From a virus, in IMG/VR virus record IMGVR_UViG_3300015245_000381, positions 1-25,844 of that record: a stretch of 25,844 nucleotides of DNA; one strand, written 5' to 3'. A program made the position numbers and the translations under genes. A model generated the notes under the pieces. That model ran no database searches. It worked only from the letters and a program-made list of their open reading frames with translations, and was not told where the DNA came from. Below are positions 5,864-23,796 of the stretch, piece after piece (position 1 is the stretch's first letter; every line of letters begins with the position of its first letter).

Positions 5864-6385
5864 ATGGAAACAAACTGGGACTACTGCCTCAAGGCCGTTC
5901 TTCTCGAAGAAGGCGGAAACGATGATGATTCTCATGATCCAGGTGGGCGTACTTCGCGAGGGATTATTCAGCGTGAATATACTGCTTATCGCAAGCGAGA
6001 AGGCTTGCCTATGCAGGATGTCTGGAAGGCATCTGACGTAGAGATTGATGAAATCTACGAAATCAGCTACTGGAATCCTTGGTGCCCGAAGTTGCCCTCA
6101 GGAATTGATTTAATCTACTATAATATGTGCGTCAACGCAGGTGCAGTACAAGCGACAAAGCTCTTGCAACGATGTCTTCATGTTAACGATGATGGGCACA
6201 TCGGCATTGTGACAATGGCAGCGATCGAATCTATCCATCCTGACGATGTAAAAACTTTGATTCATTTATTCTCTGAACGATGTTTGACGTTCTACCGAAG
6301 TCTGAAAGGTGCTAAATACTATATCAAAGGTTGGACCTCTCGCACACGAATAATTGAGAAGAAGGCCCTTGCCCTTTTGCCCTAA
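5864..6385 (+). CDS. Endolysin, GH108-type N-acetylmuramidase with peptidoglycan-binding tail
   Basis: This 173-aa protein should cut glycan strands of the host wall at lysis. It shows the GH108 pattern: LLEEGGND with the likely catalytic Glu at residue 16, then DPGGRTSRGI (25-34). The C-terminal half has the NAGAVQATKLLQRCL...DGHIGIVTMAAI pattern of the peptidoglycan-binding domain that usually accompanies GH108. There is no signal peptide or membrane segment, so it should need a holin or another export route; no holin lies next to it. AAAGGG about 6 bases upstream acts as ribosome site, and the start follows the giant gene's stop by one base. Confidence 0.9.
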   Translation: METNWDYCLKAVLLEEGGNDDDSHDPGGRTSRGIIQREYTAYRKREGLPMQDVWKASDVEIDEIYEISYWNPWCPKLPSGIDLIYYNMCVNAGAVQATKLLQRCLHVNDDGHIGIVTMAAIESIHPDDVKTLIHLFSERCLTFYRSLKGAKYYIKGWTSRTRIIEKKALALLP

Positions 6386-7629
6386 TCTTCCCCTGGCCCA
6401 AATACTGCTGTTTCCCATTTCGGGTGCCTACCAAGAATCACAATCTGACGTGAGCCAACCATTAGATCAAGAATTCGTTGTAACGACTGCGCAGGGATTT
6501 TATTCGTTGCAAACTTGATCAAATCCCCTTCTTCAACTTGGCCCAGGGCTTTCACATAGTGGGCAATCTCCTGCATAGCATTTGCATCTGCATTGCCTGC
6601 GCCGGCTTGGAACAAGTTCGGCATATGCATTTCGGCTTCTATGAGCCAACTTAACGCTCTTTTATAATCTTCTTCCGTGATAATCAGCTTTTGACCACGG
6701 TCAACACAAACGATAATGCACAATTTGAGCAAGTGCACAAATCGTCTGGAGTTGTAATGCAATAATCTAGGATGGTTAGGCACTGGGGGCATTCCGGCTC
6801 TTCGCCAATTATCGACTTGCGCAATGAAATTCTCCGCATTTCCAAGTTGTCCCCAGAGCGAACTGATAACGTGGAGGTCATGTATAAGATCTTCTGGATT
6901 CTTTTCTTTGCGACCGAATGCGGTTTCATTTATGTGCCTATCGTCTGAGAAGATGAACATTGCTCGTGAAGTAAATCCTTGTTCCCAACTACCTTCTGGC
7001 ATTGTTGTCATTAATTGTGAAGGCGTAGAACCAGCAAGGATATTAAGCTGGGGTGCCTTGATCTTGATATCGATTTCTTTAGTCCGTTTCATTTCGGAGT
7101 AAGAAGCGATTACATCATAAAAGGTTGTTAAACCGGCGATCAATTCTTTATTCCACTCCGACATCGTCACTTGCCAATCATCGGAGAAGAGAATCATGGA
7201 GTTGTATTCTTCCGAGATGCCAAGGGCAACGTTGGTAACACTCCTTCGCGATTTCTTGAGCGCGTCAACCAAAGATGCTTTGCTAACTGATTGCGGACCG
7301 ATTGGATATCCTTCAATAGTTTCACACAATCTTCTGGCGGCAGCAATCGTTCGACTTTTTCCAACGCCAGGATGCCCGACAATAAATGTGTACATATTTG
7401 GATAAATATTATCCGTTGTATGCGCCCAGACTTTTTGCTCAAGCGTGGCTCCTATAGTTGCAATCGCCGTCCATCGGCGGAAGATTTCTGGGCTTTCCAA
7501 GTCCGCGGTATATTCTACGAATGCTTCAATCCACGAATTCAGCCTCCTCAATCCGCTTCCGTTGGTCCCCTCCTTTGTAGCTTTTGAGCCCATTAGGGTT
7601 CGCCGAGGAATACTCGCATTATTCTGCAT
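6382..7629 (-). CDS. Replicative helicase-like P-loop ATPase (DUF3987-like)
   Basis: The 415-aa protein has a clear Walker A motif, GHPGVGKS, at residues 85-92, and a Walker B-like ILFSDD about 85 residues later. The lead-in PEIFRRWTAIATIGATLEQKVW...IYPNMYTFIVG is typical of phage DUF3987-like ATPases found beside family A polymerases, probably the replicative helicase. I see no primase zinc finger. The start at 7629 has GGAGAG four bases upstream. A second ATG at 7593 may be the ancestral start, because the first 12 codons lie over sequence displaced by an HNH gene (see the remnant at 7526-7600). The stop overlaps the endolysin stop on the other strand. Confidence 0.8.
   Translation of the reverse strand: MQNNASIPRRTLMGSKATKEGTNGSGLRRLNSWIEAFVEYTADLESPEIFRRWTAIATIGATLEQKVWAHTTDNIYPNMYTFIVGHPGVGKSRTIAAARRLCETIEGYPIGPQSVSKASLVDALKKSRRSVTNVALGISEEYNSMILFSDDWQVTMSEWNKELIAGLTTFYDVIASYSEMKRTKEIDIKIKAPQLNILAGSTPSQLMTTMPEGSWEQGFTSRAMFIFSDDRHINETAFGRKEKNPEDLIHDLHVISSLWGQLGNAENFIAQVDNWRRAGMPPVPNHPRLLHYNSRRFVHLLKLCIIVCVDRGQKLIITEEDYKRALSWLIEAEMHMPNLFQAGAGNADANAMQEIAHYVKALGQVEEGDLIKFATNKIPAQSLQRILDLMVGSRQIVILGRHPKWETAVFGPGED
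7526..7600 (-). pseudogene. Displaced original 3' end of the DNA polymerase gene
   Basis: Inside the helicase gene, in another frame, the minus strand reads NPNGLKSYKGGDQRKRIEEA and ends at a TGA four codons later. This matches the present polymerase C-terminus (NPNGLKSYKGGDTRQRIPEG, 8070-8135) at most positions. The frame is the same as that of the HNH gene and follows 6 codons after its stop. The simplest reading is that this was the genuine polymerase tail before the HNH gene inserted and supplied a substitute. It is probably kept because it is also helicase coding sequence. Confidence 0.75.
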
Positions 7630-8146
7630 AAAACTCTCCGAAGAGCTTCATAGCTGTTTCTTCATATGCTTCTGAAGCTTCTTCGGCAGTGTTGAATGTG
7701 CCTAATTGATGGGTTATTCCATCTTTTGTTATTCTTGCTTCGAATCTTCCACTACTTGTTTGTCTTACGCCCTTAATTTGAAGTTTGTTATTCGAGTAAA
7801 CTCCTTTATTGCAATTATTATCTGCTTGAGTTGTGGGCCTTAAATTATCAATTGCATTATGTGATTTGTTTCTATCTTTGTGATCTATGAAGACCCATTC
7901 TCCATATATATAGAACCAAGCTAAATTGTGTGCAGGATAAGATATACCGTCTATTCCTATAATAATATAGCCTAAATGATGCAAAGACCCGGCTTCTTGG
8001 TCTTTAAAACAATTAGGTCTCCCTTGAACTTTCTTCCATTTAAAGCTTCCAGTTTCTGAATCATAATCTAAAATCTCCTTCAGGTATTCTCTGTCTAGTG
8101 TCTCCTCCTTTATAGGACTTGAGTCCATTTGGATTGGTTTTTTCAT
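7619..8146 (-). CDS. HNH homing endonuclease with AP2 DNA-binding domain
   Basis: The protein of about 175 aa starts with the usual EYLKEILDYDSETGSFKWK lead-in. It continues with an HNH_3-type nuclease core (HNLAWFYIYG..IDHKDRNKSHNAIDNLR) and ends with an AP2-type domain (KGVRQTSSGRFEARI...LGTFNTAEEASEAYEETA..FGEF). These are hallmarks of phage homing endonucleases. Its 5' end overlaps the polymerase 3' end in another frame and its 3' end overlaps the helicase start. Start choice is uncertain: 8146 has GGGGA upstream; 8128 is homologous in position to the helicase ATG at 7593; 8182 is also possible. The region looks richer in A+T than its neighbours, which suggests acquisition. Confidence 0.85.
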   Translation of the reverse strand: MKKPIQMDSSPIKEETLDREYLKEILDYDSETGSFKWKKVQGRPNCFKDQEAGSLHHLGYIIIGIDGISYPAHNLAWFYIYGEWVFIDHKDRNKSHNAIDNLRPTTQADNNCNKGVYSNNKLQIKGVRQTSSGRFEARITKDGITHQLGTFNTAEEASEAYEETAMKLFGEFYAE

Positions 8147-9539
8147 CGTAGTGTCCCCAATTATATCCCGTGGCGCATCCATAAGGTATCACCAAGCTAC
8201 GATTATTGTTTAGTTCTACACGATATTCTAGTAGCTTGCGTATAACTGGAATTATGCCATCTTCCATCTCCTCGGGATATTGAACAATAATAGCATCATG
8301 GATTTGCATAAGCAAAATGCATTTCCTTTCTCGCCAGACCTGGAGCATCCCTTTGTTAACAATATCCGCAAGACTCCCCTGGGGATCATAGGCTATCGCC
8401 GCTCGAAGAGTATCTGCATCATTTCGGCGGCCGAAGAAATGCCTCCTACGCCCAGTCAAAGACGTAAGCATACCTTCACGACGAAGTGTATGCTCCGTCC
8501 AATCGTGCCATTGAAGATGGGCTGGGAAGGCGGCGAAATATGTTGGTTGAAAATCAATGATCATTCCGATGGGAACTTTAGCTTGGGTGCTGATAGTTTC
8601 AGGTTGACCTCCGTAATTAGTCCCGTGTCCGATCTTTTTACACATGAAGCGTCTAGAGTAATGTCGATAGTAAGGTTGCTCAGCAAGCTCTTTATCAGCA
8701 TTAGGGCTTCCGACCCATCCCAGATTGGGCCAACAAAGTTTTGCAACTGAAGTGTGCAAGTCTCCTGATTCACAAGCGTTGAGATACCTACCGTCATTGA
8801 ACAAGTTCCACTCGATTGCTCCAACTGCACGGCTTTCTCCTTGCTCAGCGTCGAAATATCCTAGTTTATGTCCCCTATCCGCTATGAAAACAGATCGGAG
8901 AGATTCTTCGATATTCTGGAGATTTGTACCGGTACCGAATTCGGAAAATGATGAGGATAGTCGACCAGTTGTTGTTCCTCCAATATTGTAGCTGGTTCGA
9001 ATTCTACCATCAGGATCGATTTCTGTTTTAAGCACGGAAACCTTTTTCCCAAGGTCCCGCATTGCTTTAATATGTCCGACAATGGGCCGTGCAATAAGGT
9101 AAGCCTCCATTCGTTCCATAGCATCTCGATTGACTGTGGGTTTCCCTTTCTTTCGAATAATCGGTACTCCAATTTTATCATAGAATAACTCCATCACATC
9201 TTGGGGTGAATTCGGATTAAAGTCCCATAGACCGAAGGCCTCGCCTACGATCCTTTGGAGGTTAGCCTGGAGGTGATCGATTTTATTTACATACTCCTCT
9301 ACAACCTCATCTCGTCGATGGAGATCAATCCTTACTCCACGGAGTTTCATCTCCAAAGTAGGTCCTTGTAAGGCTCTTGAAAAGGCGTAGGTCTTGGAAG
9401 TTTGATCGTCTAATTCTGGTAGAAGTACTTCCAAGACCTCTGCGGTAATAGTTACGTCCATACCGTTATAAATTTGGTCCCTCTCCCAAGCTGTGAGGTC
9501 TTCTGGACCGGTTATCGAGGTATCAACTATTTTTGCCAT
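8061..9539 (-). CDS. Family A DNA polymerase, polymerase domain plus exonuclease motif III
   Basis: The 492-aa protein synthesises phage DNA. Visible motifs: YNGMD (24-28), which is 3'-5' exonuclease motif III; TTGRLSSS (189-196); motif A DAEQGESR (230-237); the O-helix R297...K302...GTNYG; and motif C QIHDAIIV (412-419), where the Glu of VHDE is replaced by Ala, as in some phage enzymes. The protein lacks exonuclease motifs I and II, which are in the next gene upstream (9944-11038). The last 24 residues are a replacement tail. The start ATG at 9539 overlaps the 3' end of an HNH gene by 17 bases, with GGAAGAG as ribosome site. Confidence 0.92.
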   Translation of the reverse strand: MAKIVDTSITGPEDLTAWERDQIYNGMDVTITAEVLEVLLPELDDQTSKTYAFSRALQGPTLEMKLRGVRIDLHRRDEVVEEYVNKIDHLQANLQRIVGEAFGLWDFNPNSPQDVMELFYDKIGVPIIRKKGKPTVNRDAMERMEAYLIARPIVGHIKAMRDLGKKVSVLKTEIDPDGRIRTSYNIGGTTTGRLSSSFSEFGTGTNLQNIEESLRSVFIADRGHKLGYFDAEQGESRAVGAIEWNLFNDGRYLNACESGDLHTSVAKLCWPNLGWVGSPNADKELAEQPYYRHYSRRFMCKKIGHGTNYGGQPETISTQAKVPIGMIIDFQPTYFAAFPAHLQWHDWTEHTLRREGMLTSLTGRRRHFFGRRNDADTLRAAIAYDPQGSLADIVNKGMLQVWRERKCILLMQIHDAIIVQYPEEMEDGIIPVIRKLLEYRVELNNNRSLVIPYGCATGYNWGHYDEKTNPNGLKSYKGGDTRQRIPEGDFRL

Positions 9540-9942
9540 AACCGAGCTCTTCCATACGCTTATGAAGCAATATATGGTAGGACTGGTCAGGACAAATAAC
9601 TAATTTGCCGAATCCATGATTGTCTGCTGGACCGTACATATGATGAATGATGACACCTTTTGGTAATGGTCTACCCAGAGCCTTTTCTGCAAGCATCCTA
9701 TGTTCATAAACTAATTCGCCTTTAACCTTAATTAAGACATAGCCAAATTTACTATGAATCCACCTATCCTTACTTCCTCTAATTGGCAGAAGTTCAGTTC
9801 GGCCAACGCTGTTTAGATACCATTTCTGTTTGTAGTCTTTTCGCTTATCATTAGTAGCTTTGACTGCGCAGGTTTTGGAACAGTAGACATTCCTAGCACT
9901 CTTAATAAAGAATTCTTCGCCGCAGATTTTGCATTTTCGCAT
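9523..9942 (-). CDS. HNH endonuclease with N-terminal zinc ribbon, splitting the polymerase gene
   Basis: The 139-aa protein begins with a four-Cys zinc knuckle (CKICGEEF...YCSKTCAVKA, residues 4-28). It ends in an HNH core of the kind common in phages (VIIHHMYGPADNHGFGKLVICPDQSYHILLHKR). It starts two bases after the stop of the UDG-exonuclease gene, with AAAGAGG as ribosome site, and its end overlaps the polymerase start. No group I intron fits: only about 400 bases separate the two polymerase parts and the ORF fills them. It looks like a freestanding homing gene that broke the polymerase into two polypeptides. Confidence 0.88.
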   Translation of the reverse strand: MRKCKICGEEFFIKSARNVYCSKTCAVKATNDKRKDYKQKWYLNSVGRTELLPIRGSKDRWIHSKFGYVLIKVKGELVYEHRMLAEKALGRPLPKGVIIHHMYGPADNHGFGKLVICPDQSYHILLHKRMEELGYGKNS

Positions 9943-9943
9943 A

Positions 9944-11038
9944 TTAATCCTCTTTGATTGTGTCAGTTTTGCGAAGTCTCTTCCAGCTGCTGTCAGAACA
10001 ATAAATGGATCCTAGATAACCCAAACTCTTCTCTGATTCAGGATATAGAGCGTGATGCAAGAGCATACTGTCGTGTTCTGCGTTTATCACTTTCACACCA
10101 TATGCTCGCCATAGGAAGCTTATATCGTATGCTCCGTTTTGGAAGGTTTTTTGGGTAGTTGGGTCAGCAAGAATCTCTGAGATAATCCTCCAAGCTTCTC
10201 TCTCACTTGTGGGATTCGTGAAATAGTTTCTTCCACTTTTTCCAGGTCTGACGAATGGAACAACGAGGGCAATTTGAGGATTAGGTGCAAAGCCAATACA
10301 AGTTATAGCACGTCTAGAGGTTTCGATATCCACAGATAGAAGTTTACAATTATCAATATACTTAGCCTTGAACTCTCGAATATCATCAAGGGTAGGTGCT
10401 ATCCATATCTCTCTTTTGGGTCGTCTTATCTCTGGAAACTTACTTTCCCTTGCTGCCTTAATAAAATCTGCAACGCCAGTAGGCCTGGCTTCCCAGAAAC
10501 GCATGATATAAGCAGGATGATAAGTCGGTAGAACCTTATACCCCTTCACTGTATGTGTAGATAGGTGGGTAGTTCCTCTAATGGATGTGATCTTAGTTGT
10601 TCCGAGAAGAGCCCAACACGGAGTATTTCCACAAGCAATGATAAGGTTTGGGTTCTGCTCAAGCAATTCACTGGCAAGTCTATCGATTTCGGGTTCGAAT
10701 TCCCTTCGGAAGAACTTAGACTTGCCGAAGGAAGGAAGACCACTAATTCCTTCTTCCCGTGTGCCACATAGATCTTCGATCTTGTTTCCACGAGGGCGTA
10801 TGTTAAATACATTAGTTCGATAGATTTCCGGGTGCATTCGCCAGACCATATCGATAAGTCTTGGGTCTCGATCTTGCCAGAATTTGTATATATAATTCTG
10901 ATCTTCCGCAGTGAGTTCAAGGATACCGCCCTCATCTAACATTCTAAGAAGCTCTATACCGGATGAACCTACAAAGGCCTGTTGGATACGAGCTTCGTTC
11001 TCTCCCCAAGCTTCGCCGACTACACAGACATCTACCAT
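9944..11038 (-). CDS. Uracil-DNA glycosylase-like domain fused to 3'-5' exonuclease (N-terminal part of split DNA polymerase)
   Basis: Residues 1-200 look like a family 4/5 uracil-DNA glycosylase: GEAWGENE (8-15), NVFNIRP (76-82), ACGNTPCWALLG (135-146) and PTYHPAY (171-177). Residues 230-350 are a DnaQ-fold proofreading exonuclease: motif I DIET (237-240) and motif II FQNGAYD (299-305), then the HDSMLLHHALYPESEKSLGYLGSIY stretch in pieces typical of phage PolA proteins. It stops at residue 364, before motif III, which lies in the separate polymerase ORF. A UDG-like domain in front of a phage PolA is, to my knowledge, also reported for phage SPO1. Whether the UDG domain is catalytic is unknown. 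Confidence 0.88.
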   Translation of the reverse strand: MVDVCVVGEAWGENEARIQQAFVGSSGIELLRMLDEGGILELTAEDQNYIYKFWQDRDPRLIDMVWRMHPEIYRTNVFNIRPRGNKIEDLCGTREEGISGLPSFGKSKFFRREFEPEIDRLASELLEQNPNLIIACGNTPCWALLGTTKITSIRGTTHLSTHTVKGYKVLPTYHPAYIMRFWEARPTGVADFIKAARESKFPEIRRPKREIWIAPTLDDIREFKAKYIDNCKLLSVDIETSRRAITCIGFAPNPQIALVVPFVRPGKSGRNYFTNPTSEREAWRIISEILADPTTQKTFQNGAYDISFLWRAYGVKVINAEHDSMLLHHALYPESEKSLGYLGSIYCSDSSWKRLRKTDTIKED

Positions 11039-23327: not shown

Positions 23328-23633
23328 TCATCTAAGCCTAAGCCCTAAGGCTTTCAAGTCTATTCGCTTGATTGGCCCTCCTATGTTTTGCTTATTGAAC
23401 CTGGGTTGATACTGGCGTATTGCTATGAACTCCTTCTGCACCAACTCCTCGGGCTTACAGGCTTCAAAGGTAACTTGCTTCCATTGGTATTTGGCATTAT
23501 TCCTTCGCCTTGACTTGTGATGAGGGAGCCTATTTAACACGTGATTTGAGGCTCCCACATAAATACAGATATTATCTCCCCAAAGAATATATACGCCACA
23601 CAGTGGTTCAGCTAAGTGAGTTATGTCTTCCAT
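23328..23633 (-). CDS. GIY-YIG nuclease-domain protein (101 aa)
   Basis: CGVYILWGDNICIYVGAS contains the GIY-YIG core (GVY...IYVG). It is followed by NVLNRLPHH-like and E..QKEFIAIRQYQPRFN segments that supply the conserved Arg, Glu and Asn. Single-domain proteins of this size are usually freestanding phage endonucleases. The start at 23633 follows the previous stop by one base and has AAAGAG upstream; the longer frame from 23687 lies inside the neighbour. Confidence 0.82.
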   Translation of the reverse strand: MEDITHLAEPLCGVYILWGDNICIYVGASNHVLNRLPHHKSRRRNNAKYQWKQVTFEACKPEELVQKEFIAIRQYQPRFNKQNIGGPIKRIDLKALGLRLR

Positions 23634-23634
23634 A

Positions 23635-23796
23635 CTAATGCTCTTTCTCCTGTTCCACAAGCCAGAGGGCGAAGGCATGATAGTCATCGCCAGTGGCTGT
23701 GTCTAAGAATGCCAATATGGCACAGTTGAATGTGTCTTCCACCATATCACCATCAAGATATGCATTCGCGGCTTCCTTAAGTTGCTTCAGCGTCAT
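23635..23796 (-). CDS. Small hypothetical protein (53 aa)
   Basis: GGAGGAAGAA directly precedes an ATG; the product begins MTLKQLKEAANAYLDGDMVE and ends DDYHAFALWLVEQEKEH. It fits between the small membrane-protein gene (ATGA overlap) and the GIY-YIG gene. Acidic, helical, no family recognised. Confidence 0.65.
   Translation of the reverse strand: MTLKQLKEAANAYLDGDMVEDTFNCAILAFLDTATGDDYHAFALWLVEQEKEH

Follow-up and report, generated by a model that had tools for sequence, protein, structure and literature searches.

The question raised by this locus is how a phage DNA polymerase came to have part of its 3' end repeated a short distance downstream, with an intact endonuclease gene in between. 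The window, by which we mean the whole stretch of DNA analysed, is a 25.8-kb IMG/VR virus record, and the genes at issue all lie on its minus strand. The polymerase is a two-gene enzyme, made up of an ORF for a uracil-DNA glycosylase plus the 3'-5' exonuclease half of the polymerase (9944-11038; PF03167, PF01612) and a separate family A ORF that holds the polymerase domain only (8061-9539; PF00476, 126.7 bits). The HNH-AP2 endonuclease gene follows at 7619-8128 (169 aa from the ATG at 8128, in a frame that is open from 8182), and after it a DUF3987 primase/helicase-like ATPase, hereafter the helicase, at 6382-7629 (PF13148, PHROG 14296), with a start at 7593 or 7629. Comparisons were made against 80 polymerase relatives, to which more were added with other queries.

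A second HNH-like gene (9523-9942, minus strand) sits between the exonuclease and polymerase ORFs. It is unrelated to the HNH-AP2 gene, scores 18.2 bits against HNH_3, which is below the cut-off, matches several PHROG HNH families, overlaps the polymerase start with its 3' end and is absent from the relative L004. That it split the polymerase was ruled out, because the exonuclease and polymerase ORFs are separate in every relative in which both are readable, and they stay separate even in some relatives where only 2-12 nt lie between them. The exonuclease-polymerase junction is itself a second insertion hot spot among relatives, with HNH-type genes in the window, L048, L055 and L056 (in L055, as in the window, the HNH end overlaps the polymerase start codon), a GIY-YIG-like gene in L007, an endonuclease VII gene in L060 and unrelated small ORFs elsewhere. 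The window also carries a GIY-YIG nuclease gene at 23328-23687 (PF01541, 25.3 bits; cut-off 22.6).

The duplicated polymerase end and the HNH-AP2 gene

A repeat search paired positions 8100-8135 with 7565-7600, two segments of 36 nt at 78% identity and a spacing of exactly 535 that bracket the intact HNH-AP2 gene. The initial annotation had described a near copy of the polymerase end 535 bases downstream, and this was borne out, as the best match to the downstream 36-mer within the polymerase and HNH region reached 28/36 whereas 300 codon-shuffled controls gave at most 22. The correspondence that it drew between the HNH ATG at 8128 and the ATG at 7593 holds at the same spacing. The upstream copy (8100-8135, minus strand) encodes NPNGLKSYKGGD within the polymerase, and all 8 of its differences from the downstream copy are synonymous in the polymerase frame. 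DNA-level homology between the copies is limited to these 12 codons and ends after GGD.

Beyond that point, the polymerase reads in frame through 8135-8061 to end in NPNGLKSYKGGDTRQRIPEGDFRL and a stop (8063-8061) inside the HNH gene, such that the insert supplies a replacement C-terminus, and the present polymerase terminus of the window is the YDEKTNPNGLKSYKGGD version. Its new last 12 codons plus stop (TRQRIPEGDFRL; 8061-8099, minus strand) have 31% nucleotide identity to the tail of L004, i.e., chance level, and homology across the full 24-residue tails was ruled out past GGD. The suggestion that the element carried its own diverged version of the junction consequently stands for the duplicated NPNGLKSYKGGD segment and fails for the last 12 residues, which are overprinted on the HNH N-terminal codons TLDREYLKEILDY in another frame. 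On the other side of the repeat, codons ATGYNWGHYDEKT (8136-8174, minus strand) have residues unlike those of L004 and one extra codon, and codon alignment makes them a probable foreign flank of the insert with an inferred, approximate boundary. The extra codon (YDEKTNP) is missing from the downstream copy and from L004-L006 and is common elsewhere in the family.

The HNH-AP2 protein combines an HNH domain (PF13392, 31.8 bits against a cut-off of 24.8) with an AP2 domain that falls just under its cut-off (PF00847, 33.0 bits, E 7.3e-8, against 33.3), matches PHROG 99 (3.2e-58) and has residues D82, H83 and N91, which are invariant in five HNHs found at this junction. The GC content of the insert is ~35% (35.7%) as against about 45% in neighbouring sequence. 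No Rfam match was found in the window, and identity as a group I intron or intein was ruled out on this ground and because the polymerase and HNH have separate stops. A search of viral contigs (IMG/VR) for an HNH donor returned distant relatives only and no close HNH relative; no donor phage with both the window HNH and the window polymerase tail was found, the tail being about equally near several lineages.

The ancestral site and the retained polymerase end

The nearest relatives of the window, L004, L005 and L006 (82-83% polymerase identity), are HNH-free and have a single copy, with their polymerases ending in NPNGLKSYKGGD(Q/K)RRRIEEAEFVD and a stop inside the helicase gene, an overlap of about 67 nt. 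This is the arrangement that had been predicted for phages lacking the HNH gene, i.e., a single copy through which the polymerase runs straight into the helicase. In the polymerase tree the window is placed beside L004 (support 0.947) within the L005/L006 clade (1.0), and because it is nested in an HNH-free clade, the empty site is ancestral and the insertion falls on the window's own branch. Among the relatives examined, none that lacked an insert had the two copies in full. A single genome carries the window's fossil, as L003, identical over 8.7 kb, is probably the same or a near-identical IMG/VR record.

The downstream copy is a relic of the original polymerase terminus (7526-7615, minus strand), encoding EYSSANPNGLKSYKGGDQRKRIEEAEFVD and a stop and differing from L004 at 13 of 90 positions. 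As had been described, it follows the HNH stop (7621-7619) in the HNH frame and is in a different frame from the helicase; it is longer than was noted, starting at 7615, which is 15 nt upstream of the repeat and 3 nt from the HNH stop; the blastn match between the window and L004 spans 6524-7615. Past GGD the relic retains the genuine old tail, QRKRIEEAEFVD and a stop, and its doubly coded core (7526-7537, minus strand) reads FVD and a stop for the polymerase and SWIE for the helicase. The relic also encodes the helicase N-terminus in the +1 frame. The helicase start had been assigned to the ATG at 7593, and its distance of 57 nt before SWI is the family's commonest (32/74 junctions), but L004-L006 have ACG at this position and a second in-frame ATG at 7629 overlaps the HNH stop inside the HNH end, so translation may begin at either 7593 or 7629.

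With 4, 6 and 6 differences of 36 to L004, L005 and L006, which are its nearest neighbours, and with 15 further bases upstream, the relic is the ancestral terminus. The polymerase copy is nearest to L065 (8 differences of 36), lies 8 from the relic, 9 from L004, 10 from L045, L046, L063 and L080 and 11 from L005/L006, and is no closer to the relic than to unrelated family members. These distances bear on whether the junction was instead duplicated in tandem and in place when the HNH gene inserted, with no foreign tail and with fast divergence of the polymerase copy afterwards. Such a duplication is in keeping with the shortness of the segment and with both copies encoding the same 12 residues, yet sister copies would be expected to be closest to each other, and it is the relic and L004 that are; the polymerase copy, in addition, carries the extra codon together with residues that are usual in other lineages. 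Most changes proper to the relic leave the polymerase residue unaltered: in that frame, the 11 changes on its branch amount to 7 synonymous and 2 nonsynonymous codons, and so few nonsynonymous codons would arise without polymerase constraint with P = 5e-5. The relic thus served as a functional polymerase end during most of the time since it diverged. This favours a recent insertion over a duplication with a long period of drift after it, and the relic lost its role only recently. We therefore regard duplication in place as unlikely and strongly infer, from short segments (36-90 nt), that the polymerase copy is foreign rather than fast-diverged.

The same changes speak to another reading, that the second copy is kept as the helicase N-terminus, perhaps as its start signal, and is not a fossil. 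It does encode the first helicase residues from the family-typical start at 7593, but in the helicase frame the relic-branch codons divide into 8 nonsynonymous and 2 synonymous, and L016, L082 and L051 have replaced these codons, which leaves this reading improbable as well. An assembly chimera of two phage populations would account for the window's exact arrangement being on one contig only and for the GC steps at the insert; it is highly improbable given that the HNH ORF is intact and overlaps both neighbours neatly, and that five other contigs share the architecture while differing in HNH sequence. Insertion of an element at the polymerase-helicase overlap with the old end left behind, as initially proposed, is in turn supported by the empty sites, the tree and the match of the relic to its relatives.

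Repeated invasion of one overlap across the family

Related junctions numbered 89, of which 74 are zipped, that is, polymerase ILD and helicase SWI are encoded by the same bases in an exact +1 register. Besides the window, two separate copies occur at nine unzipped junctions, where the motifs lie 40-537 nt apart. Five of these hold HNH-AP2 genes (L016, L051, L082, L121 and L158, the last found by the same search as the other junction HNHs), one holds an endonuclease VII gene (L062; PF02945) and one an 80-aa ORF with no Pfam match (L059, 6492-6734), while in the other two the motifs are split without an intact nuclease, across a short spacer in L066 (6465-6505) and across a spacer with the frame AYEQAAKEHFG in L067 (5282-5380). 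The L067 spacer resembles the 3' end of an AP2 gene, and both of these loci look like scars of lost insertions, as would fit later nuclease loss. The remaining junctions are L036, with an apparent frameshift, L072, L073, L089 and L090, with truncated or diverged tails, and L096, the distant isolate Kuura. At this one site, then, HNH-AP2 is present in six occupied junctions as against 74 zipped ones, among 89 junctions. The insertion recognized in the initial annotation is real, and it is one of several events at this junction rather than a single oddity.

The two states also differ in their bases, as the offset-5 base is G in 74/74 zipped junctions because the helicase needs Trp, and it is not G in 9/9 unzipped polymerase copies, where each copy thus serves one frame. 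In the polymerase frame, the downstream copy of L062 still encodes PGDKRQRTPETPILDR; it stands at 11/48 from its sister L046, with the upstream copy at 20/48, an asymmetry as in the window. L062 hence appears to be a second polymerase-tail fossil, beside a different nuclease, on the strength of this reading frame and the L046 distances, its local repeat by itself not being significant (p 0.07). Local alignment found no significant DNA-level duplicated flanks in L016, L051, L082 and L121, and the duplication there is visible only in both proteins retaining residues that come from a single shared stretch in empty relatives. In Salmonella phage SE2, which has an HNH upstream of the helicase, inspection by eye found no tail swap. 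Within 150 nt, no 20-nt window is more conserved than the overlap core; that it is the most conserved site overall was ruled out, as over ~2.35 kb it ranks third of the 12-nt windows and outside the top eight 20-nt windows.

Two further observations concern the unzipped copies. For the Leu of ILDR, 8/9 unzipped polymerase copies (L016, L051, L082, L121, L158, L059, L066 and L067) use CTC (about 0.002 under the genes' codon usage), an excess that is suggestive only, be it of shared ancestry of the tails or of loss of a nuclease site. In L051 (5189-5764) the HNH protein extends past the usual end and terminates with RETKAGELD and a stop, resembling the old polymerase tail, and here the nuclease may have taken over the relic as its C-terminus.

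The junction HNHs (window, L016, L051, L082, L121 and L158) form no clade among 106 HNH-AP2 proteins. The L016 HNH is sister to that of L158 (0.94) whereas the L016 polymerase is sister to that of L082 (1.0), and this disagreement between the two trees points to repeated invasion and horizontal movement. The window nuclease is placed at GGD and those of the other five HNH-AP2 junctions after ILDR, and its exact target may differ from theirs. Wherever an HNH occupies the junction, its gene begins within the end of the polymerase, and the helicase begins at the 3' end of the HNH gene or within it; such overlaps make translational coupling the likely means by which junction HNHs are expressed.

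A proposed route of insertion and its precedents

Taken together, we think it probable that a promoterless, free-standing HNH-AP2 homing gene invaded the polymerase-helicase overlap of an HNH-free ancestor and brought with it a donor polymerase 3' end. The structure, polarity, recency and recurrence of the insertion are as documented above, and from them we infer the cutting, co-infection, donor and joint chemistry that follow. The incoming DNA would have consisted of the HNH gene and a polymerase 3' end from a different phage within the family. During co-infection, the HNH product would have nicked or cut the overlap in the HNH-free genome, which would then have been repaired with the HNH-bearing one as template. 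The left joint would have formed near 8174, through homology within the polymerase gene, and the right joint ectopically, just before codons EY of the old tail (7615), so that the whole old junction was kept. The polymerase would now finish with donor codons and then the 12 residues that overprint the HNH sequence, the HNH gene would have taken the ATG position of the former helicase start, and the helicase would restart at 7593 or 7629. In the remaining invaded relatives, the nuclease gene lies directly behind the doubly coded core (polymerase ILDR / helicase SWID), of which the polymerase and helicase genes each have a copy of their own.

More tentatively, and with somewhat less than even confidence, overlaps may be preferred landing sites of homing endonucleases, as doubly coded DNA is doubly constrained; the nucleases would unzip them into two copies that each serve one purpose, seize the start of the downstream gene and provide new ends and starts, and the genes would stay permanently separated once the nuclease decays. 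That targets are chosen for their double coding is offered here as a hypothesis, the conservation peak of the core being local (150 nt) and not one of the whole region. These loci present end-swapping of the fungal type in a phage together with its intermediates, namely empty, invaded, invaded with fossil, and scar, and they suggest a route by which overlapping viral genes are separated and essential replication proteins acquire new ends. The junction also provides a natural, sequence-defined target for probing the specificity of HNH-AP2 nucleases.

Several phage systems share parts of this arrangement. The T4-like free-standing endonucleases segC, segF, mobA, mobC and mobE are promoterless and use upstream transcription, share 1-24 bp with the 3' end of the preceding gene and target conserved essential genes (PMC2988022). 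The window gene is like them in lacking a promoter, in overlapping the upstream 3' end and in its essential-gene target, and it differs in its replaced C-terminus with the old one retained, which does not feature in the relevant passages of that review (PMC2988022). The HNH insertions in the ShiLan and Pacc40 methylases likewise place an HNH in one frame and a phage host gene in another, but they are internal and the methylase reads through, whereas in the window it is the end of the host gene that is replaced, the new end has a stop and a relic remains (PMC11855218). Phage HNH(HNN)-AP2 genes (Xop411, Xp10 and OP1; ICP1) have the same domain architecture, sporadic presence and degenerate remnants; no conserved flanking sequence was found for those of the Xanthomonas phages, in contrast to the one defined junction that is repeatedly invaded in the window's family (PMC2248197, PMC10448857). 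In the open PMC literature searched, we found no phage precedent for a swapped terminus with a fossil of the old one, and within that literature HNH-AP2 end-swapping at a repeatedly unzipped phage overlap is new, although the kind of event is known from fungal mitochondria.

The likeness to those fungal elements, raised in the initial annotation, held up against the C-terminus-swapping mobile ORFs of atp6, atp9, cox2 and nad3 in mitochondria of the arbuscular mycorrhizal fungus Glomus sp. and of Allomyces macrogynus atp6, which the same paper cites (PMC3630166). There, a replacement C-terminus arrives with a nuclease ORF and the native C-terminus lies downstream, closer to relatives (PMC3630166). 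In both systems, an endonuclease ORF brings a host-gene 3' end and leaves the native 3' end downstream, and the native piece matches relatives while the inserted piece is diverged in DNA and much less so in protein (PMC3630166). The window accordingly has an in-frame replacement C-terminus, a native one downstream (7526-7615) and a relic at 4-6/36 from L004-L006 with the polymerase copy at 9-11/36. Its nuclease, with HNH_3 and AP2 domains and resident in a phage DNA polymerase, is of another class than the LAGLIDADG or GIY-YIG enzymes of the fungal mitochondrial genes (PMC3630166). Unlike the fungal ORFs, moreover, the window element occupies a two-gene overlap, its nuclease starts where the helicase formerly began, and its new tail closes with nuclease codons read out of frame (PMC3630166). 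Judged from its sequence, the window element thus appears to work like the fungal end-swapping ORFs without belonging to that system.
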